From a virus, in IMG/VR virus record IMGVR_UViG_3300030107_004382, positions 712 to 23,714 of that record: 23,003 nt of DNA; one strand, written 5' to 3'. Below, in pieces: positions 1 through 13,574 of the stretch; the first letter of the stretch is position 1, and every line of letters begins with the position of its first letter. The notes below the pieces were generated by a model. The model saw nothing but the letters and a program-made list of their open reading frames with translations, was not told the origin of the DNA and searched no databases. The translations under genes and the position numbers were made by a program.

Positions 1-1
1 A

Positions 2-1109: not shown

Positions 1110-1111
1110 TC

Positions 1112-1394: not shown

Positions 1395-1397
1395 ACA

Positions 1398-1574
1398 ATG
1401 CCAATGACTAAACAACAAGCCTATCATCAGTGGCTTTCTAATTGTCCAGTTGATATTAATTTTTGTTTCTCAATTCCAAGTGAAAGTGGAAAAGAAAATT
1501 GCAGAGATGAATGGATTATCTTTCGAGATATACCAAAAACTGAATTAAGGATAATTAAAGGAAGTAAAAAGTAA
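1398..1574 (+). CDS. Small unknown protein (58 aa)
   Basis: ORF of 58 codons plus stop, starting MPMTKQQAYHQWLSNCPVDI and ending ELRIIKGSKK. AAGGAG at 1384-1389 lies eight bases before the ATG and within the end of the preceding gene. The sequence has a mixed alpha/beta look (VDINFCFSIPS, EWIIFRDI), unlike random translated AT-rich DNA. No recognised domain. It closes the run of SD-driven small genes; the next gene is preceded by a strong hairpin instead. Confidence 0.6.
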   Translation: MPMTKQQAYHQWLSNCPVDINFCFSIPSESGKENCRDEWIIFRDIPKTELRIIKGSKK

Positions 1575-1585
1575 CATTACTTGCA

Positions 1586-1626
1586 CACATCACTAGGCAT
1601 TTCTAAAATGTAAGTCCTAGTGTGTG
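1586..1626 (+). other. Strong RNA hairpin just upstream of a start codon
   Basis: CACTAGG (1591-1597) pairs with CCTAGTG (1616-1622). The stem extends outward by CACA/TGTG (1586-1589 with 1623-1626) after a one-base bulge, and inward by CATTT/AAATG (1598-1602 with 1606-1610) closing a three-base loop. That gives 16 base pairs in 41 bases. It ends four bases before the ATG at 1631 and leaves no room for a Shine-Dalgarno. No T tract follows, so it is not a classical terminator. A processing site or translational control element are alternatives. Confidence 0.7.
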
Positions 1627-1630
1627 ATCT

Positions 1631-2047
1631 ATGCACTATTACAACCCAACACTAATTAATTTTCTTACAACAATGCAAATTGTAAAAGCAGTTAAATCGT
1701 TAGTTCCGTCTATTGAACTAACGAATGATGAGAATAGAACTTCTCACCTAACTGGGACCTGGACTGATAACGCAGGTTACAGAGATGAACACAAACTTTC
1801 ATTCAGATACATACGCAATTCTGAAAAATTAGCTCGCATGCATGGAAAAGTTAATTTAAAAACTAAAGATATTGAATATAAAGATGAATGGGGTAACACG
1901 CATGTATTAACAGCTCAAAGAGCTACAGAAATCATGACTTTAGCTGAAACTATTGCTGAAGAAGCAAATGCATTAGCTGATATTTATCAAGCTTCAAACA
2001 TTGCACCTCATGATATTCTTGTTGATATACAAGCAAATCCTGCTTAA
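1631..2047 (+). CDS. Unknown protein (138 aa)
   Basis: No family recognised. The first ~23 residues are mildly hydrophobic (YYNPTLINFLTTMQIVKAVKS). The middle looks like beta strands (HKLSFRYIRNSEK, NLKTKDIEYKDEWGNTHVLT) and the C-terminal third is helical and Ala-rich (IMTLAETIAEEANALADIYQ). There is no Shine-Dalgarno; the ATG directly follows the 1586-1626 hairpin. An internal ATG at 1673 is an alternative start. It stands alone between two hairpins, so it may be a separately regulated or processed message. Confidence 0.65.
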   Translation: MHYYNPTLINFLTTMQIVKAVKSLVPSIELTNDENRTSHLTGTWTDNAGYRDEHKLSFRYIRNSEKLARMHGKVNLKTKDIEYKDEWGNTHVLTAQRATEIMTLAETIAEEANALADIYQASNIAPHDILVDIQANPA

Positions 2048-2067
2048 TATTAAAAATGAAATTATAC

Positions 2068-2094
2068 AGATCTTTATTAATTTAAAGATCTTTT
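2068..2094 (+). terminator. Perfect AT-rich hairpin followed by TTTT (weak terminator or processing site)
   Basis: AGATCTTTA (2068-2076) and TAAAGATCT (2083-2091) form a perfect nine-pair stem with a six-base loop, followed by a short T run to 2094. Only two pairs are G-C, so it would be a weak intrinsic terminator. It lies between two forward genes and ends about four bases before the next ATG (2098), the same arrangement as the hairpin at 1586-1626. Confidence 0.45.
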
Positions 2095-2097
2095 AAA

Positions 2098-2430
2098 ATG
2101 TATCAAGATAAAGAAATTAAAGAACTAATACAAGAAACTATTTCTTTAATTCCAGAACATACATGGCCTGTTGTTATTGATAAATTATCTGCTCGAATTG
2201 TTGATGCAATGCCAGCAGAATATTTAGAACAATTAACAGGTGATCCAGTTGGTTTTGAAAAAGCAGAACAAATCCTCTTGAATTTCTATCTTCAATCGAA
2301 AGAAAAACGAGAGGATTTAATTTCTGATTCTTTTGGATTTGTAGGTGCTGAATCTATTCTTTATTATTTAGAAGGATTAAACCTAGAAGAAATCCCAGAA
2401 CCTAAACAGCAGCAAGAGGCTTCTTCTTAG
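2098..2430 (+). CDS. Unknown acidic helical protein (110 aa)
   Basis: Not recognised. The protein is almost entirely predicted helix and acidic (IKELIQETISLIPEHTWPVV, then GFEKAEQILLNFYLQSKEKR), with no Cys or His clusters and no membrane segment. It ends KQQQEASS. There is no Shine-Dalgarno because the hairpin at 2068-2094 ends just before the ATG. Its last 29 bases overlap the 3' end of the reverse-strand gene 2402-2548. Confidence 0.65.
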   Translation: MYQDKEIKELIQETISLIPEHTWPVVIDKLSARIVDAMPAEYLEQLTGDPVGFEKAEQILLNFYLQSKEKREDLISDSFGFVGAESILYYLEGLNLEEIPEPKQQQEASS

Positions 2431-2548
2431 CAGCAAATCTTTTTGCATCTAATAAAATTTCTCTATTAGCTGGTGTGTCTTTGACGTATCTACCTGTATC
2501 TTTTTTGATATAGGCGATACCTCTATACTTGAGTGTTGTACAAGTCAT
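2402..2548 (-). CDS. Small protein with DUF4278-like start (48 aa)
   Basis: The first ATG of this reverse frame is at 2548, with AAAGG about nine bases upstream; extension to 2617 needs a TTG start and is less likely. The product opens MTCTTLKYRGIAYIKKD, resembling the short LxYRGxxY motif of the cyanobacterial DUF4278 family, and ends in a very basic KRFAAKKKPLAAV tail. It converges on the forward gene ending at 2430 with a 29-base overlap. The family link rests on a short motif and is tentative; a single reverse gene in a forward block looks like an accessory insertion. Confidence 0.5.
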   Translation of the reverse strand: MTCTTLKYRGIAYIKKDTGRYVKDTPANREILLDAKRFAAKKKPLAAV

Positions 2549-2656
2549 TTTGGTAGCCTTTGTTACTAAAATGATATTATTTGATCTGAAGATTTTTTGT
2601 AGTTCACACTGTAACAAATCTTACACTTTTAACAATTTATTTACAATTTAACACAA

Positions 2657-2977
2657 ATGGAAATGACTTCTGAACTTATCAATCTCGATTTAGGAAAGAT
2701 TCAATATTTAATTAATCTTGTTTCTAAAGATATTGAGATTGAAAAAAGAAATTATGACAAAGGCTATGAACCTTATCAAAGAAAAGGATTACCAACTCAA
2801 AAACAATGTCAAGATCATAATGCCGAAGCTATGCAACAACATTCTGTTTTAAAACAACTTTATGTGATTGCTCAATATACGATTTTAACTGAAGCTAAAA
2901 TGTCTCCATCAACATTTGGTGAACCTGGATCTGAAGTTGAACCAGATCTATGTGACGAAAGAGGGAGGCCACTTTAA
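2657..2977 (+). CDS. Unknown helical protein (106 aa)
   Basis: No family recognised. Helical N-terminal half (LDLGKIQYLINLVSKDIEIE), then a QKQCQDHNAEAMQQHSVLKQ segment and an acidic, Pro/Gly-rich tail. The ATG lies at the end of a 45-base stretch with no G at all (2612-2656), so initiation cannot use a Shine-Dalgarno. A second ATG two codons later (MEMTSEL) could also serve. The stop overlaps the ATG of the tiny ORF at 2977. Confidence 0.65.
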   Translation: MEMTSELINLDLGKIQYLINLVSKDIEIEKRNYDKGYEPYQRKGLPTQKQCQDHNAEAMQQHSVLKQLYVIAQYTILTEAKMSPSTFGEPGSEVEPDLCDERGRPL

Positions 2978-3069
2978 TGAATGACTTTTTAGACCTAATA
3001 GGTTATTTATCCTTAATTATTATTCTTTCATCCTCTATTTACAAATCAATCAAACATGAAATGCCCTGA
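2977..3069 (+). CDS. Candidate tiny membrane protein (30 aa)
   Basis: TAATG-coupled ORF with AGGGAGG at 2962-2968 upstream, encoding MNDFLDLIGYLSLIIILSSS followed by a short basic tail. Residues about 5-21 form one plausible transmembrane helix, a common shape for phage miniproteins. It overlaps the next gene by 14 bases. Caution: most of it coincides with a 53-base G-free tract (3003-3055) that may be the leader of the gene at 3056, so the ORF could be partly accidental. Confidence 0.42.
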   Translation: MNDFLDLIGYLSLIIILSSSIYKSIKHEMP

Positions 3070-3364
3070 ATGTAACTCTAAAAATACTAGAGTTTCTTCT
3101 ACAGATCCTCATCCTATTGAAGATTTTACTAAAAGATATTGTAAATGTTTTAATTGTGGAGCATGTTTTACTACTATTGAAAAATATGCAAACACAGCAC
3201 ACAATCCAGGGAGAAAGAAAAATAGTTTTATTTTAAATAATTATCAATGTGAAATGATTAAAAGAAATAAATATATGTTATCAAATAGTGAATGGGCTGC
3301 TATTTATAAAGTTTCTCTTTCAACCATTATTAATGCAAAAACAAAATTTAATTCAACTAATTAG
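3056..3364 (+). CDS. NrdR-type zinc ribbon with C-terminal helix-turn-helix-like region
   Basis: The N-terminus (MKCPECNSKNTRVSSTD) and the later CFNCGACFTTIEKY fit the zinc ribbon of NrdR-like regulators (CPxC...CxxCgxxFTTxE), with ligands C3, C6, C31 and C34; C29 and C37 are extra. NrdR's ATP-cone domain is missing. Instead residues about 75-98 (MLSNSEWAAIYKVSLSTIINAKTKF) resemble a helix-turn-helix of the kind found in phage HNH enzymes and small regulators. Likely a DNA-binding protein, possibly a transcription regulator. No Shine-Dalgarno. The ribbon is well supported; the HTH is inferred. Confidence 0.65.
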   Translation: MKCPECNSKNTRVSSTDPHPIEDFTKRYCKCFNCGACFTTIEKYANTAHNPGRKKNSFILNNYQCEMIKRNKYMLSNSEWAAIYKVSLSTIINAKTKFNSTN

Positions 3365-3408
3365 TTGTATTTATTAAAAATTGTATTATTATTTATCAAC
3401 AATCTTCC

Positions 3409-3651
3409 ATGAAAAAAACAACAATGTCTTATGTAATCGCTTGCTGGAAGAAGGGTATCCCGCATGGAATACAAGTAACTAATGATCGCTTTACTCTTGT
3501 ACCACTTGATTCACAGACAAATGTATCTAAACTATTTAACAATCCGCATCGAACTCAGATGCAAAAATTCTTGGATTGGATAAAAGAAAATGACAAAGAA
3601 CTTAAAAATGAAGAATTCTCAATTCAAGACTACGGCAGATTCAGAAAATGA
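3409..3651 (+). CDS. Unknown protein (80 aa) overlapping the polymerase start
   Basis: Not recognised. Short basic protein (MKKTTMSYVIACWKKGIPHG, later RTQMQKFLDWIKENDKELKN). It is preceded by a 25-base G-free leader (3384-3408). Its 3' end overlaps the DNA polymerase frame by up to 62 bases, so the two are probably translated in coupled fashion. Position suggests a polymerase partner or regulator, but nothing in the sequence proves that. Confidence 0.6.
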   Translation: MKKTTMSYVIACWKKGIPHGIQVTNDRFTLVPLDSQTNVSKLFNNPHRTQMQKFLDWIKENDKELKNEEFSIQDYGRFRK

Positions 3652-5452
3652 ATCTTGGCTTATATTTGACTTAGAATCTGATGGCTTATATGACAATGTT
3701 ACAAAAATCCATTGCTTGGTTATTTATGACATTCAATCAGGACGAACTTTTAGCTATGGGCCTGATGCTATTAGCAACGCTATTAATCATCTGGACTCCG
3801 CTGATGTTTTAATTGGTCATAACATTCTCTTTTATGACATTCCAGTTCTTAAAAAATTACATCAAACTGAATTCAAAGCAAGAGTTATAGATACTCTTAT
3901 CTGTACACGTCTTATTTGGCCTAAAGAAACGCTTTATGACCTTGACGAAGAACAATATCAGGAAGTTCCACCGAAGCTCAAAGGTTCTGCTTCACTTAAA
4001 GCATGGGGGTATCGACTTGCAGATCACAAGATCGAGTTCCAAGATTTCACCGAATACTCCCAGGAAATGCTCGACTACTGCATCCAGGATGTCAGAGTTA
4101 CAGAAAAATTATGGAATCATATTATCCATCAAAAGTATCCTGAATCTGCTTTGGTTCTTGAACATGACTTCGCTCAAAAAATCAATGAACAAATTAGAAC
4201 AGGAATTCCATTCGATGTGGATAGATGTCTTGACCTTGTGGATGTTCTCAGAACAAAGAAACAAAAACTTGAAGATGAATTAAAGACATTATTTCCTCCA
4301 CTTAAAAAATCTGAATGGTTTACTCCTAAAGTAAATAATCAAAAAAGAGGTTATGTAAAAGGTGTTCCATTTGAAAAAATAAATTATGAAGAATTCAATC
4401 CAGGATCACGTAAACAAATTATTGAACGTTTATACAACAAGTACAAATGGGTACCAGAAGGAAAGACTGAAAAAGGAAATCCAAAACTTGATGATGATGT
4501 CCTCGAAAAACTACCCTTCCCAGAAGCTAAAACACTGGGAGAATACATGCTTATTAATAAACGATTAGGACAAATTGCTGATGGTAATAATGCATGGTTA
4601 AAATTAGTTAACAATGATACAGGCAGAATTCATGGAGATGTTATTACTAATGGAACAATTACAGGACGATGTAGTCATCGCAATCCAAACTGCTCACAAG
4701 TAGTTGCTAATGGTAAGCCTTATGGCAAAGAATGTCGTTCTTTATTTCATTCGCCTTATGATTGGGATCTTATTGGTGTAGATGCTAAAGCACTTGAACT
4801 CCGTTGTCTTGCAGGGTATTTGGCTCTATGGGATGACGGTGAATATGCTTCTATGGTTATCAACCCAGAGGTAGACATACATACTTATAACCAAGAGCAA
4901 TTTGGTGTTGCTACTAGGGATATAAGTAAACGTCTACTTTATGGAATGTTGTATGGCTGTGGTGCAGCTAAAGCAGGTACTATTATTGATCCTAATGAAA
5001 AGAATGAAGGCAGACTTAAAAACATGGGTAGAAGTGCTATCAATGGCTTTATGAAAGGTGTCCCTGCTCTTAAAAAACTAAAAGATCAAATAGAAGAAAC
5101 CATTACTAATCGTGGTTATTTGATTGGTTTAGATAGACGCATCCTTCACTGTCGCTCTTCTTTTAAAGGACTTAATGTTTTATTACAATCAGCTGGTGGC
5201 ATTCTTATGAAACAAGTTGTTGTAAACATTCATAACAATATTGAAAACAACTTAAAATTGAAACATGGTGATAACTGGGAACAGTTATTAATGATTCATG
5301 ATGAAGTACAACTTACTTGTAACAAAAAGTACACAGAAAAAATAAGGGAACAGGCAATGATAGCCTTCCCTCAAGCCCAAGAGTTCTTTAACTTTAGGTG
5401 CAAAATTGAAGGAGATTCTTGCATTGGTAGCACCTGGGCCGAAACGCATTAG
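3590..5452 (+). CDS. Family A DNA polymerase with 3'-5' exonuclease (T7 gp5 type)
   Basis: Replicative polymerase of 620 residues (T7 gp5 has 704). The exonuclease domain shows Exo I (D27, E29 in FDLESDG), Exo II (HNILFYD, D83) and Exo III (YCIQD, Y163/D167). The polymerase domain shows motif A (VDAKALELRCL, D398), motif B (R443xxxK447xxxYG) and motif C (IHDE, residues 569-572). All catalytic acids are present, so both activities should work. The gene is uninterrupted. The start is uncertain: ATG 3590 or ATG 3608, neither with a clear Shine-Dalgarno and both inside the preceding ORF. A segment around residues 116-172 has markedly more C-ending codons than the rest, suggesting recombination. 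The gene is followed at once by the AACGTC hairpin and the SSB gene. Confidence 0.95.
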   Translation: MTKNLKMKNSQFKTTADSENESWLIFDLESDGLYDNVTKIHCLVIYDIQSGRTFSYGPDAISNAINHLDSADVLIGHNILFYDIPVLKKLHQTEFKARVIDTLICTRLIWPKETLYDLDEEQYQEVPPKLKGSASLKAWGYRLADHKIEFQDFTEYSQEMLDYCIQDVRVTEKLWNHIIHQKYPESALVLEHDFAQKINEQIRTGIPFDVDRCLDLVDVLRTKKQKLEDELKTLFPPLKKSEWFTPKVNNQKRGYVKGVPFEKINYEEFNPGSRKQIIERLYNKYKWVPEGKTEKGNPKLDDDVLEKLPFPEAKTLGEYMLINKRLGQIADGNNAWLKLVNNDTGRIHGDVITNGTITGRCSHRNPNCSQVVANGKPYGKECRSLFHSPYDWDLIGVDAKALELRCLAGYLALWDDGEYASMVINPEVDIHTYNQEQFGVATRDISKRLLYGMLYGCGAAKAGTIIDPNEKNEGRLKNMGRSAINGFMKGVPALKKLKDQIEETITNRGYLIGLDRRILHCRSSFKGLNVLLQSAGGILMKQVVVNIHNNIENNLKLKHGDNWEQLLMIHDEVQLTCNKKYTEKIREQAMIAFPQAQEFFNFRCKIEGDSCIGSTWAETH

Positions 5453-5454
5453 AA

Positions 5455-5476
5455 TAACGTCCTGAGTATGACGTTA
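5455..5476 (+). other. Intercistronic AACGTC hairpin, copy 1
   Basis: TAACGTC (5455-5461) and GACGTTA (5470-5476) form a perfect seven-pair stem with an eight-base loop, two bases after the polymerase stop. TTAAAAGACTT and a G-free CAACTTAACTT leader to the ATG at 5508 follow. The same order recurs at 9256-9306. No T run follows, so a terminator is unlikely; an RNA-processing or regulatory element is inferred. Confidence 0.65.
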
Positions 5477-5507
5477 AAAGACTTTCAGTTCATCCTCAAC
5501 TTAACTT

Positions 5508-6383
5508 ATGAATCACATTACAGTCACAGCCAAAGCAATCGAAGATGCTAGACGCATTGAAGGCAGAATACCAGCAGTATTTTGTAACGTAGAAATTGCT
5601 CCTCATCCTTTTGGAAAAAGCTATACACCTACTTATGCAGAACTAAGAGTTTGGGGTAAAGCTTCAGCATTTTTAGAACCTGCAAAAAAAGGATCAAACA
5701 TTTTAGTGAATGATGCTGAATTTGTTATTAATTACAACAAAGAAGCTCAATCAAATGAAATACAGATTAAAGCAAAACAAACTGTATTTGTTCCTGAACA
5801 ATTTCCCATTATTAATACAGTAATTCTTTCAGGAAGAACTGGTGTTGAATTTGATCCTGGAGATCCAAAGCAACGTAATTATCGAGCTACAGAATCAGGA
5901 TGGATATTCGCAGAACAAAGAATAGTTGTTCAAAATAGAGATATTCCTGCATTACCTGATCCTTATACTTTCAAAACTATTTACAATAACAATGCTGAAT
6001 ATAGAGGAATAAATTATGCAGACTTAATTGCAAATCTTTTACATAAAAAGCAAATTCCTATAACCATTAAAGGTTCTTTAGTAACAGAAAAATCTGAAAT
6101 GGAAGGACGAGAAACTAGGTATTATTCTAAAATTTTACTTTCTGATAAACAAGCTATAACAGTACATCAGATGCAATCAATAGCATCACAAACTGTTAAG
6201 CCAAAAGCGTCAAAACCTCAACCAACACCTAAAGTTATGACAGATGATGCTTGGAAAGATCTTCCAAATCAAGATCCTTCAAATCAGCACAGTATTGCTC
6301 CTGATCCAACACCAATCCCAACTGTAACTTCAACTCCTGTGGCTACAACAATTAATACAGATACAAAGGAACCTCCTTTCTAA
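5508..6383 (+). CDS. Single-stranded DNA-binding protein, probably two OB domains
   Basis: 291 residues. Residues ~1-75 (AELRVWGKASAFLEPAKKGS) and ~100-210 (VILSGRTGVEFDPGDPKQRN, then IPITIKGSLVTEKSEMEGRE) each show the strand pattern of SSB-type OB folds, including the 'G.l..' return strand. Residues ~220-285 form a disordered Pro/Gln/Thr-rich linker, and the protein ends KEPPF, matching the acidic-then-PPF/IPF tip with which bacterial SSBs recruit replication partners. The size is about twice a normal SSB core plus tail. It sits directly after the polymerase. Initiation uses a G-free leader without Shine-Dalgarno. Role: coating ssDNA at the fork and docking replisome proteins. The assignment rests on motif pattern and tail, not a strict domain match. 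Confidence 0.62.
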   Translation: MNHITVTAKAIEDARRIEGRIPAVFCNVEIAPHPFGKSYTPTYAELRVWGKASAFLEPAKKGSNILVNDAEFVINYNKEAQSNEIQIKAKQTVFVPEQFPIINTVILSGRTGVEFDPGDPKQRNYRATESGWIFAEQRIVVQNRDIPALPDPYTFKTIYNNNAEYRGINYADLIANLLHKKQIPITIKGSLVTEKSEMEGRETRYYSKILLSDKQAITVHQMQSIASQTVKPKASKPQPTPKVMTDDAWKDLPNQDPSNQHSIAPDPTPIPTVTSTPVATTINTDTKEPPF

Positions 6384-6387
6384 ATTT

Positions 6388-6486
6388 CTAGGCGTTCATC
6401 TCGCAAGCATTAAGTTGCTAAAAGCCAATTGATATAAGTCGGGGAGACATTGTGGGTTCGTCCTACTAAGAGCTTCTCCCTCCTAG
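6388..6486 (+). promoter_or_regulatory. Structured GC-rich leader RNA of unknown class
   Basis: The 125-base gap before the gene at 6509 is more GC-rich than its surroundings and can fold extensively. CTAGG (6388-6392) pairs with CCTAG (6482-6486). GGGGAGA (6441-6447) pairs with TCTCCCT (6475-6481). Inside that, GTGGG pairs with CCTAC around a TTCGT loop. In the 5' half AGCA pairs with TGCT. The result is a two-hairpin, closed-multiloop outline of about 99 bases, about 22 bases before the ATG. It is not a tRNA and does not match a riboswitch I know. It could be a cis-regulator or a small RNA. Confidence 0.5.
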
Positions 6487-6508
6487 CACCCCTTAACTAC
6501 TGCCTCTA

Positions 6509-7525
6509 ATGACGCAATTAACTACGATGCCTTCTTCCAAAACAAAACCTAGTTCAATCACAAACTTTGAAGCCTCTTTCTCTATGTTTAGAGAATCTGA
6601 ATTTATTTCAGGTATTGATGGCTTTGGTACACTTCAACCTTTACATAACAATGACAAAGCTTATTGGGCTGTAAAAGAAGAAAGTTTGAAAGCATGTAAG
6701 TGGACTGCCACTGAAAAAGATTTTGATAAAGATTCAGTTCTTTGGAATCATTCTCACCGTTTTCATAATGGTGCTAGAGAATTAATGCATGCATTTATTA
6801 AACCAAGAATTCAAATTATTCATACCTCCAACATTTTAGTTGTTGATGATTCCATTTTAGATAGAAATGGAAAGTCGATGAATATGATTATTGGTGATTT
6901 ATCTATGCCTCATGTTGCTAAAGCATTTGAAGTAGATAAAGAAAAAGCTGGAGACAATGGTAATCGTCAGTATTCAACTAGAACTAAATATCTAGTTAAT
7001 ATCTTGACTAAAGATAATCAACCAGCTCATGAAGTACCTTTAGTTTTTACTGTTAAAGGATTAGCTAGTGTTGATATGTCTCGCATGTTAAAAGAATTTA
7101 CTAAACAAATGAATAGGTGTTATAGCACTGGTTTAGAATTAAAAAGTGATATGCGATTTGATGAAAGAACACAAGCAGGATATGTTTTTGTTCCTGAATT
7201 AGATATTAGAAGTGTTGATGCTCGTGGAAACAGAAAGGTAAGTATTCCTGCAATCGTAGACTACAAAAAACCTGATTATTCTACAGTTGAAAAAGCTAAA
7301 GAATCTATGTTTGAATATTCTATTCCTATAGAGAATAGAGAAAAAACATGGGAACAAATGCAAGATGATTTCTTAGGAAATTACATTAACAAACATAGTG
7401 AACAGGAAGCTGCAAAGCTTAATGGTGCTTATGGTATTGCTGAAGGTGTTCCCGCTTTAATGCCTAAAACAGTAGCTGTTCTACCAGAAGGTGCAGAAGA
7501 TACTGGAGAAGACGCAGCTTTATGA
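6509..7525 (+). CDS. DUF5895-like protein (338 aa), next to SSB
   Basis: Not firmly recognised; overall layout recalls the cyanobacterial DUF5895 proteins found on plasmids and phages, but I cannot verify this. Low-complexity start (MTQLTTMPSSKTKPSSITNF), a globular core with Trp-rich strands (AYWAVKEESLKACKWTATEK), a segment HEVPLVFTVKGLASVDMSRM resembling a ligand- or DNA-binding domain, and an acidic C-terminus (PEGAEDTGEDAAL) that could mimic an SSB-like tail. It follows SSB and the structured leader at 6388-6486, suggesting a role in DNA replication or ssDNA handling. An alternative start is ATG 6524 or 6581. The stop overlaps the convergent NblA-like gene by six bases. Confidence 0.6.
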   Translation: MTQLTTMPSSKTKPSSITNFEASFSMFRESEFISGIDGFGTLQPLHNNDKAYWAVKEESLKACKWTATEKDFDKDSVLWNHSHRFHNGARELMHAFIKPRIQIIHTSNILVVDDSILDRNGKSMNMIIGDLSMPHVAKAFEVDKEKAGDNGNRQYSTRTKYLVNILTKDNQPAHEVPLVFTVKGLASVDMSRMLKEFTKQMNRCYSTGLELKSDMRFDERTQAGYVFVPELDIRSVDARGNRKVSIPAIVDYKKPDYSTVEKAKESMFEYSIPIENREKTWEQMQDDFLGNYINKHSEQEAAKLNGAYGIAEGVPALMPKTVAVLPEGAEDTGEDAAL

Positions 7526-7744
7526 TTTAAGGATTATTTTATCTGGGCTAACTAGTTCACTAATTAGCCCTTTTATAATGACATTACGTTGTGTTGCTAA
7601 TTGTGCAAGATAAGTAGCTACTTGTTTTAAAGCTTCTTTATCTTCACAGTTATCAATACTTCTTTTAAATTTTTCAAATACAAATTGATCTTCTAATGGA
7701 ATCTTATATTCTAAGTATTCTAATTTAGAAGATTTCTTTTCCAT
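7520..7744 (-). CDS. NblA-like phycobilisome degradation adaptor (candidate)
   Basis: A 74-residue reverse-strand protein. Residues 16-54 run PLEDQFVFEKFKRSIDN, then an A-L-K-Q helix and LAQLATQRN. This follows the pattern of NblA/Ycf18 proteins (sLEqqFslrsFeeqVqnms..qAqdfLv.Ly.qm..rE): LExQF at 17-21, F26, hydrophobic I30, N32, A38, then L/Q/R spacing with one extra residue. Size is close to the ~60-residue family norm with a short charged extension at each end. It has a good AAAGGA ribosome site. NblA tags phycobilisomes for Clp degradation; phage NblA is known from a Microcystis phage and from uncultured marine cyanophages. Other short cyanobacterial helical families share part of this pattern, so the call needs a profile search. 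Confidence 0.5.
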   Translation of the reverse strand: MEKKSSKLEYLEYKIPLEDQFVFEKFKRSIDNCEDKEALKQVATYLAQLATQRNVIIKGLISELVSPDKIILKS

Positions 7745-7791
7745 TTGAATCCTTTTCTTTTTCTATTCTACATGCATCCAAAGATTCAATT

Positions 7792-7971
7792 ATGTTAAAC
7801 AAGTTCGGTCCTCTTACTCTTATGGGTGCTGGTGTATTTACAGCTGTTGGTAATCCTATCACATGGGCTGCCATTGCTGGTCTTGCTACATTTCAAGTTA
7901 GTAAAAAACTCTATAAGAGATCTAGAAAAAAATCTAAAATTAGAAAAGAAGAATACGACTTATTTATTTGA
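7792..7971 (+). CDS. Small membrane protein (59 aa)
   Basis: Starts MLNKFGPLTLMGAGVFTAVG, continuing with NPITWAAIAGLATFQVSKKL, so residues ~6-36 are Gly/Ala-rich and hydrophobic, one or two short membrane segments. The last 20 residues are very basic (KKLYKRSRKKSKIRKEEYD), which should stay in the cytoplasm. It diverges from the NblA-like gene with 47 bases between starts, and overlaps the convergent 7964-8113 gene by eight bases. No Shine-Dalgarno is obvious. Small, basic-tailed membrane proteins are common phage accessory or lysis-related genes, but function here is unknown. Confidence 0.6.
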   Translation: MLNKFGPLTLMGAGVFTAVGNPITWAAIAGLATFQVSKKLYKRSRKKSKIRKEEYDLFI

Positions 7972-8113
7972 AAATAATTGCACTATCAATTAATTTTTCA
8001 ATACTTTTTGACATGGCATTATAGCTAGTGCCTACATATAATTGACCGCTAACAACCGCAGCTGTCATTACTGCCCAGAAAATGTAGTACCAACGTGCTT
8101 TGATTTGGGCCAC
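7964..8113 (-). CDS. Small membrane protein of the MAQIKARWYYIFW type (49 aa, GTG start)
   Basis: The reverse-strand frame from GTG at 8113 to TAA at 7964 encodes MAQIKARWYYIFWAVMTAAV, then VSGQLYVGTSYNAMSKSIEK. Residues ~9-26 form one transmembrane helix with a basic, aromatic N-terminal flank. As far as I remember, a short conserved protein with this opening occurs in many cyanomyoviruses, function unknown. The only in-frame start is GTG, with an upstream stop just 15 bases away. It overlaps the forward gene ending at 7971 by eight bases. The coherent membrane-protein sequence makes it a convincing gene. Confidence 0.7.
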   Translation of the reverse strand: MAQIKARWYYIFWAVMTAAVVSGQLYVGTSYNAMSKSIEKLIDSAIIFK

Positions 8114-8158
8114 AAGAATCTTGTATTCTTACCTAACACTAACTTAATTTCAACTTAA

Positions 8159-9064
8159 ATGACAAACGAAATTTATTCTGAGCTAAATGAAGCTCAAAAA
8201 ATTATCTACACACGCTCTATGATTGGTAGAGCTTTTCCTGATTTTGATCATGGACAAATCTGTACCATTTATCGTGTAGGAAAACATTGCATAGTAAAAA
8301 GAAAAAATGGATTAGAAGAAAAATATCCTGCAGAAGATATTAAAATTGCTTATTTAAAATTTATACAAAGAGAAGTTCCTTTCTTCTCTTATTGTGGTCC
8401 TGGTTATAGAGGTCCAATTCCTTGGTCACATCAACCTAATACATATATCCTTCTTAAAGGTTGGCATTATGCATATGAAGGATCTCATAAAACTCCAGAA
8501 GCATTAATGCAACGTAGCTGGATTAATTCTTTTAACACTTTAAAAAGTATTGAATCTGTTAAAAGCTTATTGGACAATTTAAATGATGATGATCCAAAAG
8601 ATGAAGGATTGGATGATACTGAAAAAGCATTAGGACATATTATGACTCCTTATAAATATTGTTCTTGCCAAGCTTTTCAGAAACAACTTAGAAATTTAGA
8701 TGAATTTAAACATGAATTTTATAAAGATTATCAGCCTATGTGTAAACATCTTTATTGGTATGACAAATTTAAATTATTCCAAAGAAAAAGAAATGAATTA
8801 ATTGAAGATTTAGGAGCAAAACCTCCAATGAATGTAGTTCTTTGGTTCTATGTACCACCTGTTAAACAATATGGAAAAGGTCAATTTAAAATTTGGTGGA
8901 CTAGAAAAGGATTATATTCTGATATAACAAATTGGAAAGAAATTCAAGGTTTAAGTCAATGGGACACCTGGACTTATTTCGATAGGATGTTAGAGAAAGG
9001 TTTCGTTCCATACGAAGGCTCTATTGTTCCAAAATTGAAATTAAAACTATGCGAAAAGTCTTAA
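8159..9064 (+). CDS. SWIM zinc-finger-like protein (301 aa)
   Basis: Residues 168-170 (CSC) and 195-197 (CKH) give the C-x-C-x(24)-C-x-H signature of SWIM zinc fingers, which bind DNA or protein partners. Upstream are an aromatic-rich segment (FSYCGPGYRGPIPWSHQPNT) and an acidic linker (residues ~141-153, DNLNDDDPKDEGLDD). The C-terminal third is Trp/Tyr-rich (NVVLWFYVPPVKQYGKGQFK). The start follows a 35-base G-free leader. It lies between polymerase/SSB and the Gp157-like gene, so a role in replication or recombination is plausible. I do not recognise the full-length family. The 3' end overlaps the next gene by 16 bases. Confidence 0.65.
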   Translation: MTNEIYSELNEAQKIIYTRSMIGRAFPDFDHGQICTIYRVGKHCIVKRKNGLEEKYPAEDIKIAYLKFIQREVPFFSYCGPGYRGPIPWSHQPNTYILLKGWHYAYEGSHKTPEALMQRSWINSFNTLKSIESVKSLLDNLNDDDPKDEGLDDTEKALGHIMTPYKYCSCQAFQKQLRNLDEFKHEFYKDYQPMCKHLYWYDKFKLFQRKRNELIEDLGAKPPMNVVLWFYVPPVKQYGKGQFKIWWTRKGLYSDITNWKEIQGLSQWDTWTYFDRMLEKGFVPYEGSIVPKLKLKLCEKS

Positions 9065-9252
9065 TTGATGGTCTTAAAGCACATGCTAAAGGTCATATTG
9101 AAAAACATAAATCTAATATCGAAATCTATTTACATGGATCAGTAGGTATTGGAGAACATTCAGATATTATTGCTGCAATTGAAGTTGAATTAAACCATAT
9201 TGCACACTATGAAGATCAATTAGAAGTACTCGAAAAATACTTTAGTATATGA
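9049..9252 (+). CDS. Small conserved cyanophage-type protein (67 aa)
   Basis: MRKVLIDGLKAHAKGHIEKH, followed by GSVGIGEHSDIIAAIEVEL and a helical end (YEDQLEVLEKYF). From memory, T4-like cyanophages carry a very similar short ORF (same 'LIDGLKA.AKGHIEKH' and 'VGIGEHSDI' blocks), with unknown function. It is helical and amphipathic, suggesting a small coiled-coil partner protein. It overlaps the SWIM gene by 16 bases, and its stop is followed at once by the second AACGTC hairpin. Confidence 0.7.
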   Translation: MRKVLIDGLKAHAKGHIEKHKSNIEIYLHGSVGIGEHSDIIAAIEVELNHIAHYEDQLEVLEKYFSI

Positions 9253-9255
9253 TTA

Positions 9256-9278
9256 AACGTCCTTTAAGTCATGACGTT
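9256..9278 (+). other. Intercistronic AACGTC hairpin, copy 2
   Basis: AACGTC (9256-9261) and GACGTT (9273-9278) form a six-pair stem with an 11-base loop, four bases after the preceding stop. TAAACTGACTT and a G-free CAATCTAACTCAACTCTA leader to the ATG at 9307 follow. Order and spacing match copy 1 at 5455-5507, though the intervening bases have diverged, which argues for a functional module. Confidence 0.6.
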
Positions 9279-9306
9279 AAACTGACTTCAATCTAACTCA
9301 ACTCTA

Positions 9307-10044
9307 ATGACACAATCTAATCTTTCCTTTCTTAAAAAGGCTCCAGAAGAAATGCCTTTTAAAGAGTTAATTTCTCAAAGAGAAAATTTAACTAAAACTA
9401 TTCCTCTTTTAGATGAAGAATCAAAAGAGATTGTAAAAGCTGATCTTGCTGCTATTACAGAAGAATGTTCACCTAGATGGGATGAACTTTACGTAACTAG
9501 AGAAAATTTAAAAACAATTATTAAAACATTAAAAGAAGAAAAAGCTGAAGTTGATAAAAGCATCAAATCGAAAACAAATGATCTTGATTCTTTAAATGTT
9601 TTACTTAGAGAAATAAGAAGAAGTTTTCCACCACATTCTGATTGTGATACTTTCTCTGGTAAATACTTTCAATTTAAAGTTAAAGCAATTACACCAGGGC
9701 AACAATATAGTCTAAAAATTATACAGACAAAAAAGATAGAAGAATTTTCTCATAAAGATCAAGTCAAATTCTTTTATAAAGAAGAAAGAATCGAAACTAT
9801 AGAAACTGTGGTAACGTCAATAGAAGGAGAAGAAATCTCCAGAACAAGTCTACCTAAATCTACAGAACAATTTATTCTTAATGAAAATGCAGTCATCAGT
9901 GCTTACAAAGACGGAAGTCTCCCCCATGGAATCAAAGTCATCCAAAATTACAGAATTACAACAAAAAGAATCAGTGGCAACATGGACGTGGAAACATCCC
10001 AATATACAAAACGCTTTCTTCGAGAACCTACCAGCTCCAGTTGA
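9307..10044 (+). CDS. Siphovirus Gp157-like coiled-coil protein (245 aa)
   Basis: Residues ~20-105 form a long charged helix or coiled coil (LISQRENLTKTIPLLDEESK; later LKTIIKTLKEEKAEVDKSIK). The C-terminal half is strand-rich (YFQFKVKAITPGQQYSLKII) and ends with ENAVISAYKDGSLPHGIKVI, similar to the 'a...G..ipGv.v' ending of Sipho_Gp157 (PF05565). Proteins of that family lie in phage recombination or replication clusters beside SSB and nucleases, which fits this neighbourhood. It starts after the AACGTC module and a G-free leader. Its last ~120 bases overlap another frame (9926-10321). The family assignment is probable; the biochemical role is unknown. Confidence 0.55.
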   Translation: MTQSNLSFLKKAPEEMPFKELISQRENLTKTIPLLDEESKEIVKADLAAITEECSPRWDELYVTRENLKTIIKTLKEEKAEVDKSIKSKTNDLDSLNVLLREIRRSFPPHSDCDTFSGKYFQFKVKAITPGQQYSLKIIQTKKIEEFSHKDQVKFFYKEERIETIETVVTSIEGEEISRTSLPKSTEQFILNENAVISAYKDGSLPHGIKVIQNYRITTKRISGNMDVETSQYTKRFLREPTSSS

Positions 10045-10321
10045 TGTAGAAGAAGCTCATCTTTACATGTGCTGTCATCAACATAACGAGCAAGACTTTG
10101 ATCTTCAACTTAAAACTATGGAGTTGGAATTAGATGAATACTTAGATGCTGATGACAGACCAGTTGATGATTTAATAGCTGATACTCGTGCTAATCAAGT
10201 TAGATATTTAAAAAGTAAAAGGTATCATCATAATGCTCGTTGTTGTTATTGGTATTGGATGCAAAAAGAATCTGATCTTAATCAAAGAAAAGCAAAACGT
10301 AAAAAAAAGCTTCAAAAATAA
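9926..10321 (+). CDS. Unknown protein (131 aa) overlapping the Gp157-like gene
   Basis: The frame begins inside the preceding gene; ATG 9926 (MESKSSKITELQQKESVATW) has GGAAG about ten bases upstream, while ATG 9881 would add 15 residues. Past the overlap the protein is clearly coding: acidic (LDEYLDADDRPVDDLIADTR), then RYHHNARCCYWYWMQKESDL and a very basic Lys/Arg end. The Cys/His-rich middle (HLYMCCHQHNEQ; HHNARCCYWYW) could bind metal, but the spacing fits no motif I know. The overlap of about 119 bases is unusually long and more GC-rich than the flanks. Function unknown. Confidence 0.6.
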   Translation: MESKSSKITELQQKESVATWTWKHPNIQNAFFENLPAPVDVEEAHLYMCCHQHNEQDFDLQLKTMELELDEYLDADDRPVDDLIADTRANQVRYLKSKRYHHNARCCYWYWMQKESDLNQRKAKRKKKLQK

Positions 10322-10357
10322 ATTTCATATAGAATAAAGAAAATAATAGAGGAGTTC

Positions 10358-10624
10358 ATGGAGAAAGATTCAGCTAATTTATATGCTTTACTTGCTGGCT
10401 TTACCCAAGAAGGAACTCCTCTAGAAGCTTTAATTGGTAGCAAAATTGAATGGGGTGTTACTGTTTTAACTGCTGCAATGCTTGCTAATGAAAATTTAGC
10501 AGGAAGTATGGAAGCACAAGAAATGGTTGATGGTGCTATAAATTATTACAATTTAATTCAAGAACGTTTAGCTTTTTATAGACAAAATCAAGTACATAAT
10601 CTTGAAAAAATGATTGATAGTTAA
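10358..10624 (+). CDS. Unknown helical protein (88 aa)
   Basis: Good ribosome site (AGAGGAG) nine bases before the ATG. All-helical by eye: LYALLAGFTQEGTPLEALIG, WGVTVLTAAMLANENLAGSM and GAINYYNLIQERLAFYRQNQ. The central segment is Ala/Leu-rich but too charged at its ends to be a sure membrane helix. No Cys, no catalytic motif, no recognised family. It follows the replication block and precedes several unrelated small genes. Confidence 0.65.
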   Translation: MEKDSANLYALLAGFTQEGTPLEALIGSKIEWGVTVLTAAMLANENLAGSMEAQEMVDGAINYYNLIQERLAFYRQNQVHNLEKMIDS

Positions 10625-10659
10625 ATGCTGCTATCGTAAATATATAACTAATAAATTAG

Positions 10660-10857
10660 ATGGAGAAAGAGAAACTACCTCGTTTAATTCTAAATTTTTC
10701 TGTAGATTTAGATATTGATTATAATCCTTTTAACGGTAAAACTAAAGAAGAATTTATCAAACATATTGAATCAGAATTACATGAAGTTTTATTTGATGTA
10801 AGCCCAAGCGTAAAAAACGCTTATACTTCTCTTATTGCTATTGATGAAAATGCTTAA
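10660..10857 (+). CDS. Small unknown protein (65 aa)
   Basis: MEKEKLPRLILNFSVDLDID, then YNPFNGKTKEEFIKHIESEL, looks like a strand, loop and helix. It shares its opening style (MEK-) with the previous gene but no clear homology. No Shine-Dalgarno: the upstream bases are ACTAATAAATTAG. Its 3' end overlaps the next frame by about 14 bases. The family is not recognised, although small proteins of this design are common in cyanophages. Confidence 0.6.
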   Translation: MEKEKLPRLILNFSVDLDIDYNPFNGKTKEEFIKHIESELHEVLFDVSPSVKNAYTSLIAIDENA

Positions 10858-11341
10858 CAAATCTGATCAATTTGGTACTCCTGAATGGAGAGAAGAAAAT
10901 AACCGTAGAGTATTTTTTCAAAACCATATGTATAGGTGTGCAGGAAGAGATAATCCTGATCATCCAATGCATGGTCTTTTTACTGGTTTATGGCATGACT
11001 TTTGTTTAAATGAAGCAGGTAAAGCACAAAGAGATATGTGGTTTGAACGCATAGAATTTATACAAAAAGTACAAAATGGAGAAATTGTTTTACCACAATG
11101 TTCAAATGATGTTGTTGAAGAAGAAATTCCAAGACCTGAAGAAGAAATAGCACAAGACTTTGATGTTTCTAATGCTGATCCAGTAGATGAATATTTAAAT
11201 TGTTCTGCTGAATGTGATATTAATGATCAAGAATGTGAAGATATTTGTTTAGATGAATTAAAGAAACCTGTAATAGAAGAATTCGGTACACTTACCGTTG
11301 GTCAAGCAGATTCACCACATCAAGCTGCTATATCTAAATGA
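10844..11341 (+). CDS. Unknown protein with conserved-looking N-terminus (165 aa)
   Basis: Three in-frame start choices exist: ATG 10844 (MKMLNKSDQ), ATG 10850 (MLNKSDQF) and an upstream TTG at 10835; the ATGs are more likely. Residues ~5-80 (FGTPEWREENNRRVFFQNHM; HPMHGLFTGLWHDFCLNEAG) look like a compact helical domain with several His and Trp. The second half is acidic, with Cys pairs (NCSAECDINDQECEDICLDE) that could bind metal or form disulfides. No known family. The start lies inside the preceding gene; the stop overlaps the next ATG (ATGA). Confidence 0.6.
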   Translation: MKMLNKSDQFGTPEWREENNRRVFFQNHMYRCAGRDNPDHPMHGLFTGLWHDFCLNEAGKAQRDMWFERIEFIQKVQNGEIVLPQCSNDVVEEEIPRPEEEIAQDFDVSNADPVDEYLNCSAECDINDQECEDICLDELKKPVIEEFGTLTVGQADSPHQAAISK

Positions 11342-11514
11342 ACTGTTATCTTTGTGGTACTCCACTTAATATATCAAGCAATATAGATTTCCCAGAACAT
11401 GAACTTTATAATATGATTAGTTTTTTTGATTGTCCTAAATGTAATGCAGCTGTAGAGGTATATCATCCAATAGATCAAAGAGCTTCTACTTCTTGCCAAT
11501 GCTCAATACGATGA
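11338..11514 (+). CDS. Zinc-ribbon miniprotein (58 aa)
   Basis: ATGA-coupled to the preceding gene. The 58-residue product has two CxxC knuckles, C3-Y-L-C6 and C32-P-K-C35, in the spacing of a small zinc ribbon (MNCYLCGTPLNISSNIDF; FFDCPKCNAAVEVYHP), and a third CxC near the C-terminus. Such miniproteins can bind nucleic acid or modify a protein partner. Its last 40 bases overlap the convergent HNH gene. It is short, but the ordered cysteines make it a good gene candidate. Confidence 0.6.
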   Translation: MNCYLCGTPLNISSNIDFPEHELYNMISFFDCPKCNAAVEVYHPIDQRASTSCQCSIR

Positions 11515-11741
11515 CAGTTACTACATAAAGGAATACATTTTTCCATTTCTTTTACAATATTTTTCCAACTATAACCAACACCTACCATACGAGAAATACT
11601 ATTCTCTTTATTACCAAGGTGATGAAATTCTAGAACACGATAATCATCTAAGCCACAAGCTTTACAGCATAATGTTTTCTTATGCGTTATTAACTTTTGC
11701 CTGTTTTTACGTATTCGTTTTTTACTACTTTGCCAACTCAT
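11475..11741 (-). CDS. HNH endonuclease (88 aa)
   Basis: Compact HNH nuclease. A basic N-terminus (KKRIRKNRQK) precedes C26-K-A-C29, the catalytic pair in LEFHHLGNKE (H40, H41), and C73-S-N-C76-H-R-I-E-H81. The CxxC...HH...CxxCH...H layout is that of zinc-stabilised HNH enzymes of homing-endonuclease or phage type. It is a stand-alone reverse-strand gene with a 40-base tail-to-tail overlap, typical of mobile freestanding HNH genes in phages. Its start is 15 bases downstream of the methyltransferase stop, so the two are probably co-transcribed. Confidence 0.88.
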   Translation of the reverse strand: MSWQSSKKRIRKNRQKLITHKKTLCCKACGLDDYRVLEFHHLGNKENSISRMVGVGYSWKNIVKEMEKCIPLCSNCHRIEHWQEVEAL

Positions 11742-11756
11742 AATATTTACAAAGTA

Positions 11757-12344
11757 TTATTCTTTCCATATCCATGCTATTTGATATTCATCTATATAAG
11801 GTTTTAAATCTAATGCATCCATTAATTCTCCAATAAGCCGACCTTTCCCTAGTAGTCTGCCATCTGCTGCTCTTAAGTTATCATCTACAACAATTAAAGT
11901 TCCTGGTTTAATGATATTTTTAGCTGCAAATAATTCTTTTAAATGATGTGCAGAGGACTCCCAATCATTTCCCCAATCTGTAATATTGAATGAATCTAAA
12001 TAAAGTAAATCTACTTTTCCTTCTAAATAACCTAATTCTTCTACTGAGTCACCACAAATAACTTCAACACGTTTACTTGTATTTTCTCTAGCAAGTTTAC
12101 ATGCTTTAGGACTAATATCAATTGAAATGACATTTCCTCCTCTATACTTTACATAATTATCAAATAATAATGTAGAACAACCATCACCTCGATAATTGTC
12201 CTCTTCCCTGTAGCAGCCTGTTTCTACAATGAAGATTTCTTTATCTTTAATGTCATCTAAATACTTAAAAATTGTTCTAAAACTATCTGTTCTTCCCCCT
12301 AAACTTTCAGATATATCATCAAAATATTCATTCCAAAAAGTCAT
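11757..12344 (-). CDS. Class I SAM-dependent methyltransferase-like protein (195 aa)
   Basis: Rossmann-type order: motif I region FIVETGCYREEDNYRGDGCS, then NVISIDISPKACKLAREN with acidic D after strand 2, RVEVICGDSVEELG, and VDLLYLDSFNITDW. It ends GTLIVVDDNLRAADGRLLGK and YQIAWIWKE. Similar to Methyltransf_24-type proteins found in cyanophages and in surface-sugar gene clusters; the substrate is unknown (a sugar or small molecule is as likely as DNA, since no DNA-methylase DPPY/NPPY motif is seen). It is reverse-strand with its own promoter (12368-12395) and AGGTAA upstream. Confidence 0.78.
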   Translation of the reverse strand: MTFWNEYFDDISESLGGRTDSFRTIFKYLDDIKDKEIFIVETGCYREEDNYRGDGCSTLLFDNYVKYRGGNVISIDISPKACKLARENTSKRVEVICGDSVEELGYLEGKVDLLYLDSFNITDWGNDWESSAHHLKELFAAKNIIKPGTLIVVDDNLRAADGRLLGKGRLIGELMDALDLKPYIDEYQIAWIWKE

Positions 12345-12367
12345 TTTGTTTTATGATTACCTCTTTG

Positions 12368-12395
12368 AATATAACTTATTTAACTAATTTGTCAG
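12368..12395 (-). promoter_or_regulatory. Candidate sigma70 promoter for the methyltransferase
   Basis: On the reverse strand CTGACA (12395-12390), a 16-base spacer and TATATT (12373-12368) precede the methyltransferase ATG at 12344 by about 24 bases, with AGGTAA between. The fit to a bacterial -35/-10 pair is fair in an AT-rich region. Confidence 0.4.
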
Positions 12396-12420
12396 ATAAA
12401 ATATAATTTTTCTACTAGAC

Positions 12421-12450
12421 TTGACAGAGCAGATAACTTAAATGTAATAC
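12421..12450 (+). promoter_or_regulatory. Candidate sigma70 promoter for the nuclease/primase operon
   Basis: TTGACA (12421-12426), an 18-base spacer and TAATAC (12445-12450) lie so close to the ATG at 12462 that the transcript would start about five bases before it, nearly leaderless. The upstream TATAAT at 12402-12407 is an alternative -10 without a good -35. Confidence 0.45.
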
Positions 12451-12461
12451 ATATTCTTCAA

Positions 12462-13313
12462 ATGAAAGACACTAATATTCTTGAAACTAAAAAAGAGAAA
12501 GAGATTATAAATGACGATGTAATGAAAGATATTAATAAAACTGCTGCACGTATAACGCTTAATGGTAAACGACATTACACAACACCTTTATTTACAGGAC
12601 CAGCTCCATCCGTAACAACCATAATTTCTGAAACTGCTTCTGAACAAAATAAAAAGAAATTAGAAATGTGGTCTAAAGCCAATCCAGGTGTAAAAGAAAA
12701 AGCAGCTGAACGAGGTACAGCAATCCATTATGGAATGGAACAATATTTAAAAGGTGAAAAAGACCCAGAAATATCTGAAGACTATGCAGAATTTTGGTCG
12801 GGTATGCCAAAAATATTAGATCAATTTGGTGATGTACTTTGGGCAGAATCTCCTGTTTTAGAATCTTTTAAATTTACTATGGGTGCTGATGAAGTAGCTC
12901 GTGTTTGGGGTTCTGATGAAGAAGGACGTGCTTGGGCTGGTGCTCCTGACATTATTGGATTTGTAGAAGATAAATTAACTCTTGCAGATTTAAAAACAAG
13001 TGTTAAACCTTATAGTCGTAAATGGCCTAAAGAATATGAAAAAGGCTCACAAGAATGGAGAGATCTTTTGGGTGGTTATATGAAATTTAAAAAAACTTGT
13101 AAACAACTAGCAGCATATGATCTTGCTATACAACAAACTTTAGACGTTAAAGTTGATCAAGCTGCCATATTAGTATCAACACCTTTACGTACACAAGTAT
13201 TTAAAATATCAAGAAGGTTTCTTGATAAATTACACGTAGATTGGTTGAAAATCGTAGAAGAATATTATAAACAGATAGATAATTGCAATGTTTATGATGC
13301 AGATTCAATCTAA
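12462..13313 (+). CDS. PD-(D/E)XK exonuclease, RecB/Cas4 type (283 aa)
   Basis: Nuclease motifs in order: ERGTAIHYGMEQYL (H89), GAPDIIGF (D163), LADLKTS (D176-x-K178) and KQLAAYDLA (Q215xxxY219), the RecB-family set. The first ~25 residues are charged and variable. An in-frame ATG at codon 21 (MKDINKTAARITLNG) is an alternative start. Probable role: 5'-3' or structure-specific degradation of DNA in phage recombination or host DNA breakdown. It heads the operon with the small gene 13392 and the primase-helicase. A near-leaderless sigma70 promoter candidate lies at 12421-12450. Confidence 0.85.
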   Translation: MKDTNILETKKEKEIINDDVMKDINKTAARITLNGKRHYTTPLFTGPAPSVTTIISETASEQNKKKLEMWSKANPGVKEKAAERGTAIHYGMEQYLKGEKDPEISEDYAEFWSGMPKILDQFGDVLWAESPVLESFKFTMGADEVARVWGSDEEGRAWAGAPDIIGFVEDKLTLADLKTSVKPYSRKWPKEYEKGSQEWRDLLGGYMKFKKTCKQLAAYDLAIQQTLDVKVDQAAILVSTPLRTQVFKISRRFLDKLHVDWLKIVEEYYKQIDNCNVYDADSI

Positions 13314-13331
13314 AATCTAAGCTTAATATTT

Positions 13332-13356
13332 TGAATAATTCATTTCAGATTATTCA
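13332..13356 (+). other. AT-rich hairpin after the nuclease gene
   Basis: TGAATAAT (13332-13339) pairs with ATTATTCA (13349-13356) around a nine-base loop, eight base pairs, about 20 bases after the nuclease stop. No T tract follows. It may be a processing site or attenuator between the nuclease gene and 13392; the AT-rich stem is weak evidence. Confidence 0.35.
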
Positions 13357-13391
13357 CACTAGGATAATAGAACACCTAAAAATAGCTTCCA

Positions 13392-13574
13392 ATGGAAATA
13401 AACGTTTCCGTTGGCGAGTGGATGAATACCCTTAAAAGTCGTATGGAAAATGCGACAGATGGGGATTGTTTTCATTTGCCGACACAAATGCATTATCACG
13501 CATTCACGCTATTAAAAGAAGAGGTGTTCCCACACAAAAAACTTAATGTAACCATTGACAACACTCAACTCTAA
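13392..13574 (+). CDS. Small unknown protein (60 aa) coupled to primase-helicase
   Basis: MEINVSVGEWMNTLKSRMEN, then ATDGDCFHLPTQMHYHAFTL and a charged end. The stop overlaps the primase-helicase ATG (TAATG), so it should be translated with it. GC is higher here than in the flanks, continuing into the first bases of the primase gene. Not recognised; the position makes a primase partner possible but unproven. Confidence 0.6.
   Translation: MEINVSVGEWMNTLKSRMENATDGDCFHLPTQMHYHAFTLLKEEVFPHKKLNVTIDNTQL

Follow-up and report, generated by a model that had tools for sequence, protein, structure and literature searches.

A predicted stop-anchored RNA pseudoknot ahead of G-poor, Shine-Dalgarno-less leaders in S-EIV1-like cyanophages, and its recurrence in phages of other bacteria

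Several genes in a 23,003-nucleotide stretch of viral DNA (the window) begin behind long runs without any G and without a Shine-Dalgarno (SD) site, which raises the question of whether such leaders reflect base composition or form part of a distinct way of starting translation. The window comprises 23,003 of the 23,714 bases of the IMG/VR virus fragment IMGVR_UViG_3300030107_004382, whose source is a freshwater cyanobacterial virus. A megablast search of the window against 50,697 phage records gave no near match. Among named viruses the closest relative is S-EIV1, an Arctic freshwater cyanophage that exists as an isolate and for which the Synechococcus host is named; its polymerase is 65% identical. 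Relatives of the polymerase were found in 27 IMG/VR loci, most of which keep the gene order. tRNA and tmRNA genes were sought in the window and none was found.

The initial annotation had drawn attention to eight G-free leaders, and the lengths of their runs were confirmed exactly (45, 53, 25, 19, 35, 22, 17 and 16 nucleotides for genes 2657, 3056, 3409, 5508, 8159, 9307, 12462 and 13574). Runs of at least 16 nucleotides precede 9 of the 35 starts, compared with 4.5 expected from shuffles of the same 60 nucleotides (p = 0.02) and 4.7 expected from the intergenic G content of 0.118; they are found at 25.7% of starts and at 4.6% of other ATGs. An excess beyond base composition is present, but it is modest, about twofold, and G-free and other starts in the window were not clearly separated by single-strand folding of their leaders. 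The sequence CAACTYAACT, described as a recurrent leader end, was rejected as a motif because it is no commoner than chance, with three matches (one exact, at 5497, and two with one mismatch) where 4.9 are expected. A division of the starts into two initiation classes survives loosely: an SD-like site was detected at 7 of the 35 starts and none at the other 28, so that SD-less starts are the majority.

When the leaders were compared with those of relatives (coordinates in Table 1), they proved to be of several kinds (coding sequence, promoter-proximal UTRs and intercistronic leaders) rather than the single SD-independent programme that had been suggested. The 53-nucleotide 'leader' of gene 3056 is the coding sequence of a previously unlisted open reading frame (ORF), which encodes a hydrophobic, membrane-peptide-like product of 30 amino acids and overlaps the start of gene 3056; its G-free run is absent in distant relatives. 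The run ahead of the primase gene is coding as well. Upstream of gene 3409, a promoter-like block, read by eye, is conserved in loci L002, L003 and L027 between variable flanks, and the start lies 16 nucleotides past the -10-like hexamer. Before gene 12462, the TTGACA of the promoter-like sequence is retained in L027, L002 and L026, and the -10-like hexamer lies 11 nucleotides before the ATG, implying a very short 5' UTR. A consensus promoter scan did not return the -35/-10 pairs at either gene, that of 12462 failing the scan's -10 rule; judged by reading and conservation, each gene seems to have a short 5' UTR that follows a sigma70-like promoter. The runs at 2657 and 8159 are kept in relatives, and the leader of 5508 stays G-poor. 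Among 18 sequences including the window, the leader of 8159 has a median run of 32 nucleotides, 0.33 G per 25 nucleotides and no SD site.

It could be argued that nothing special is involved, and that G-free runs are simply what AT-rich, G-poor intergenic DNA, short UTRs, coding overlap and an SD-poor host produce. This reading holds for four or more of the eight leaders, and the low intergenic G content, the merely twofold excess and the coding nature of the runs at 3056 and 13574 speak for it, as does the listing of Prochlorococcus marinus among 'SD-scarce' organisms (PMC10783764). It is refuted for 5508, 9307 and 8159, however, by conservation of the leaders in relatives with protein identities as low as about 28% (G-free over this whole range at 8159), and as an account of the whole set we consider it improbable.

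Table 1. Positions of the features discussed, numbered from the first base of the window.
Feature	Coordinates	Strand	Basis or remark
Element 2 hairpin CTAGGCATTTCTAAAATGTAAGTCCTAG upstream of gene 1631	1593..1620	+	sole window copy
G-free 45-nt leader of gene 2657	2612..2656	+	45-nt run kept in both relatives found, L003 and L027
Small ORF MNDFLDLIGYLSLIIILSSSIYKSIKHEMP	2977..3069	+	conserved in L002, L003
Promoter-like TTGTAT-16-TATTAT and short 5' UTR of gene 3409	3365..3408	+	by eye, conservation
Family-A DNA polymerase (polA)	gene 3590, stop 5450-5452	+	
Predicted H-type pseudoknot 1, between polA stop and SSB gene	5456..5486	+	
G-poor leader from pseudoknot 1 to 5508 start	5487..5507	+	final 19 nt G-free, no SD
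Dual-OB-fold single-stranded DNA-binding protein (SSB) gene	5508..6383	+	ortholog annotation, AF2 model, Foldseek
DUF5895 protein	gene 6509		
G-free 35-nt leader of gene 8159, no pseudoknot	8124..8158	+	conserved
Predicted H-type pseudoknot 2, between stop of 9049 (9250-9252) and gene 9307	9256..9289	+	
G-free 18-nt leader from pseudoknot 2 to 9307 start	9289..9306	+	
Promoter-like TTGACA-18-TAATAC before exonuclease gene 12462	12421..12461	+	by eye, conservation
Exonuclease	gene 12462		
CDS overlapping primase gene 13574 start	13392..13574	+	holds the 16-nt G-free run
Prim-Pol/D5 primase	gene 13574		

The strongest feature of the leaders had escaped the initial annotation. A predicted pseudoknot of about 30 nucleotides precedes 5508, 9307 and many genes in relatives. 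It has the pattern ACGUCC-N-[S2]-U-GACGU-UAAAC-[S2'], in which S1 (CGUC/GACG) closes a hairpin, the 3' part of the hairpin loop pairs just downstream to form a freely covarying S2, and a UUAAAC loop is shared. In pseudoknot 1, S1 would be formed by 5457-5461/5470-5474 and S2 (GAGU/ACUU) by 5464-5467/5481-5484, with UUAAAA as L3, and the GTC lies exactly 6 nucleotides past the upstream stop codon. The corresponding helices of pseudoknot 2 are S1 9256-9261/9273-9278 and S2 AAGTCA 9266-9271 with TGACTT 9283-9288; in L027 its S2 reads AAACTA/TGGTTT and its S1 has changed from CGUC/GACG to UGUC/GACA, a double compensation.

Covariation was assessed in 64 sequences from loci picked by protein homology. 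Standard pairs filled 92.7% of pair cells, double changes numbered 78 compared with 22.8 in shuffles (0/500), and sliding the register of the S2 partner lowered pairing to 50% or less. With the set widened to include unrelated phages, 95.1% of cells were paired and double changes numbered 77 versus 20.2. The site scan had demanded some S2 pairing and the test was redone without that demand: 61 of 63 sites pair at four or more of five positions, and among 166 IMG/VR sites full pairing is seen in 142, where swapped tails give a mean of 58 (maximum 70). Near-invariance of GUC/GAC and of AAA is partly imposed by the search descriptor; GTCC..GAC is present in 20/20 ssb leaders picked by protein homology. 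A covariance model, R1, recovered the window sites at E = 1.9e-7 (pseudoknot 1) and 1.1e-6 (pseudoknot 2), both being among its training sequences, and gave no further match in the rest of the window. Taken together, these comparisons make an H-type pseudoknot at 5508 and 9307 well supported at the sequence level. An element acting as DNA was rejected on the S2 covariation and on orientation, with 83 matches on the coding strand and one on the opposite strand in 480 kb of relatives, and one in the shuffled sequence.

The position of the pseudoknot between genes is precise. At 87 unique sites the GTC lies exactly 6 nucleotides past the stop of the preceding ORF, and at 22 more it lies 7 nucleotides past it, with all three stop codons in use; the start codon follows S2 at a median distance of 21 nucleotides, rarely less than 18. 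With this spacing on either side, the pseudoknot would be a tight fit between a ribosome that terminates and one that initiates. Leaders behind the pseudoknot contain a mean of 0.73 G per 20 nucleotides, with no G at all in 31 of 67 and an SD site in only one of 67, which makes SD-independent initiation plausible. A model search found between two and nine copies per S-EIV1-like record, with one exception that has none; S-EIV1 itself has seven. Besides those named above, the genes behind it include the DUF5895 gene, genes for proteins of about 255 and about 570 amino acids and several small ORFs. Programmed readthrough or frameshifting into the next gene was dismissed, as the spacings and frames, from which this was judged, are too variable for fusion.

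Some S-EIV1-like leaders carry a different structure, element 2, a hairpin of the form CUGGGCA[stem-loop]GUAAGUCCCAG, of which the fetched loci contain 39 unique copies (among them copies in L041, L058, L066, L074, L089, L121, L151:11084 and L151:11792). It usually lies about 30 nucleotides ahead of a start and is likewise followed by a G-poor leader; in S-EIV1, leaders behind the pseudoknot or element 2 average 0.75 G, versus 3.17 in other intergenic leaders (p = 0.004). Element 2 has no Rfam match. Which of the two structures an orthologous gene carries differs from phage to phage, the DUF5895 gene and the 570-amino-acid gene among them, and this exchange implies a shared role. Element 2 is unrelated to the pseudoknot and exchangeable with it in cyanophages.

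For the pseudoknot we tentatively favour the following reading, to which we would give somewhat less than an even chance. The G-free leaders of 5508 and 9307 would be the 3' portion of an intercistronic RNA module in two parts, consisting of the H-type pseudoknot of about 30 nucleotides that starts 6 nucleotides past the upstream stop and of a G-poor, SD-less, single-stranded track of about 20 nucleotides that runs up to the next start codon. The pseudoknot would act in cis, on the RNA, as a gene-boundary element between the terminating and the initiating ribosome. Its fixed fold would keep upstream sequence from pairing with the leader, and it may dock S1 or the 30S subunit in the manner of tisB-type standby sites, while in the S-EIV1-like lineage the G-free tail would serve as a landing track on which the 30S subunit could load without SD pairing. 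Ribosomal protein S1 binds H-type pseudoknots, and a pseudoknot together with unstructured RNA constitutes the standby site of tisB (PMC7708055); pseudoknot-dependent translation has also been described for timP in E. coli (PMC11228461). The arrangement found here, a pseudoknot beside single-stranded RNA upstream of a start, is the same as in these two systems, for the first of which docking of S1 and 30S has been shown (PMC7708055, PMC11228461). They differ in being single chromosomal toxin mRNAs whose sequestered ribosome-binding sites lie far downstream, whereas the present element is a conserved sequence family in phage operons, close to starts that have no such site. Against this reading stands the leader of 8159, which is G-free without a pseudoknot.

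The element is not confined to cyanophages. The same pseudoknot was found in phages of Mycobacterium, Arthrobacter, Microbacterium, Corynebacterium, Staphylococcus, Lactobacillus, Moorella, Paracoccus and Nostoc, in the thermophilic phage D6E and in a microvirus, so that the host groups span cyanobacteria, Actinobacteria, Firmicutes and Proteobacteria; one pattern, run against 84,980 prokaryote genomes, returned only nine contigs. At 91 non-cyanophage sites the next 30 nucleotides are not G-poor (6.3 G versus 2.3), an SD-bearing start follows within 80 nucleotides in 29, and 30 lie 3-6 nucleotides from an upstream stop. Molivia has the pseudoknot after ssb and immediately before a tRNA; it adjoins a tRNA in L072 and L068 as well, and lies directly 5' of a pseudo-tRNA in NMeng1. 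In Staphylococcus, Lactobacillus and D6E phages it stands ahead of scaffold/capsid genes. Outside the S-EIV1-like cyanophages there is thus no G-free leader, and often an ordinary SD site or a tRNA follows; the pseudoknot is general, the G-free leader is a trait of the lineage, and the two are separable. For the same reasons the pseudoknot is not a dedicated replacement for the SD sequence. The anchor most generally kept is the upstream stop codon.

These contexts raise the alternative that the pseudoknot marks a boundary for RNA processing or stability, blocking exonucleases or designating where the RNA is cut, which would give the segments of a polycistronic mRNA, or an mRNA and a tRNA, separate fates; the G-free leader would then be only the place where ribosomes ordinarily land in an SD-poor host. 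Anchoring to stop codons in all lineages, the location directly 5' of tRNAs and before scaffold/capsid genes, and the exchange with element 2 would all suit such a role, which fits the other lineages at least as well as a standby site or landing track does. Two copies also lie just 5' of hammerhead-like cores, which lie 40-44 nucleotides downstream (L118:2090 and L135:8713, both on the minus strand), and one contig carries a Pistol ribozyme near three tandem pseudoknots (L078:6968-7029). The hammerhead association, however, is not above chance (two seen, 0.8 expected) and was rejected, the cores were not called by Rfam at the gathering score, and a stability element would not need an exact 6-nucleotide distance from the stop. 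Overall we regard this explanation as rather unlikely, if a serious contender.

Gene 5508 itself suggests another regulator. Its product is an SSB, on the evidence of its S-EIV1 ortholog, annotated as a ssDNA-binding protein, and of an AlphaFold match to dual-OB SSBs: the best Foldseek matches of the AF2 model are the Deinococcus and Thermus SSBs, with E down to 1.5e-11. The tail, modelled at low confidence, is probably disordered, and the protein ends in an invariant PF. In relatives the ssb leader is G-poor (1.7 G per 25 nucleotides) and has the pseudoknot in 17/17 cases, and the pseudoknot was present in all 20 orthologous ssb leaders examined. By analogy with T4 gene 32, the SSB might bind the pseudoknot, spread along the leader and repress its own gene and others. 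The T4/RB69 operator has the same anatomy, an H-type pseudoknot of about 28 nucleotides and an unstructured tract with UUAAA that leads to the start of a phage SSB gene (PMC535899, PMC3014915). It differs from the present element, which precedes many genes per genome, has a leader of about 21 nucleotides rather than more than 40 and lacks an SD site, lies 6 nucleotides past a stop codon and occurs also in phages that lack this SSB. The SSB family was found, weakly, in just one of about 27 unrelated pseudoknot-bearing records (D6E, E = 3.9e-4), and the pseudoknot also stands ahead of tRNAs and capsid genes; autoregulation of the gene 32 type therefore fits the anatomy at 5508 and not the distribution, and we think it very unlikely.

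Finally, the pseudoknot might be a very small self-cleaving ribozyme, or a sensor of a protein or metabolite, passed from phage to phage as a module. Helix and loop nucleotides that hardly vary beside a freely covarying S2, occurrence in phages of many phyla and exchange with an unrelated hairpin speak for such an RNA, and its core resembles the P1/linker of Pistol. The Pistol ribozyme (RF02679) and the preQ1-I riboswitch share with it a small hairpin whose loop forms a pseudoknot and an A-rich linker; compared with Pistol, it lacks P3 and the cleavage strand. On the other hand, 30 nucleotides would be exceptionally small, no conserved partner gene was identified, Rfam gives neither family a match at the pseudoknot, and the genetic contexts are unlike queuosine genes; a ribozyme or sensor seems to us highly improbable. 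A search with the Rfam 15 covariance models yielded no match at the window pseudoknots (E <= 1) or in L018 1100-2000 (E <= 10), and this includes the STAXI motif (RF01728). STAXI is alike in being a pseudoknot near ssb and other DNA-manipulation genes, but it occurs as two or three tandem copies in Enterobacteriales (PMC2864571), whereas the copies described here are single.

No description of the pseudoknot was found in the open-licence literature; an earlier one is possible in subscription papers and supplements, which lay outside the scope of the search. We suggest, with the reserve due to a claim that we put at a little under even, that it represents an undescribed and very widespread phage RNA class, in which a stop-anchored pseudoknot of about 30 nucleotides serves as a portable gene-boundary signal in phages of many bacterial phyla and which in S-EIV1-like cyanophages has been amplified, is linked to G-free, SD-independent starts and can be exchanged for an unrelated hairpin. 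Its action would be either directly on the terminating or initiating ribosome or through the definition of RNA ends. Phages need tightly packed genes to be expressed at levels that differ widely, and most phage operators known so far are specific to one system. One small RNA fold, conserved in sequence across phages of cyanobacteria, Actinobacteria, Firmicutes and Proteobacteria and a microvirus, often at an exact distance from stops, would be a general phage mechanism. With S-EIV1 available as an isolate with a named Synechococcus host, the prediction is directly testable, and so short a pseudoknot could serve as a portable part in synthetic biology.

Several further observations were made at these loci. 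Upstream of the scaffold/capsid genes of Staphylococcus phage B166 (L165), the pseudoknot at 1501-1526 has been annotated as a BPROM promoter, and a blastn search lists similar matches in 85 Staphylococcus phage records. In four unrelated bacterial MAG contigs (L153:7014, L154:325, L158:1224 and L160:6635) the pseudoknot overlaps or follows a tiny related ORF with a shared AHC motif. Within the window, the leader of the DUF5895 gene (6384-6508; GGGGAGACATTGTGGGTTCGTCC..TTCTCCC) looks structured and is near-identical in L002, L026 and L027; it is not the pseudoknot. A glutamine-II riboswitch (Rfam RF01704) lies on the minus strand of an S-EIV1-like phage contig, at L005:8391-8447.
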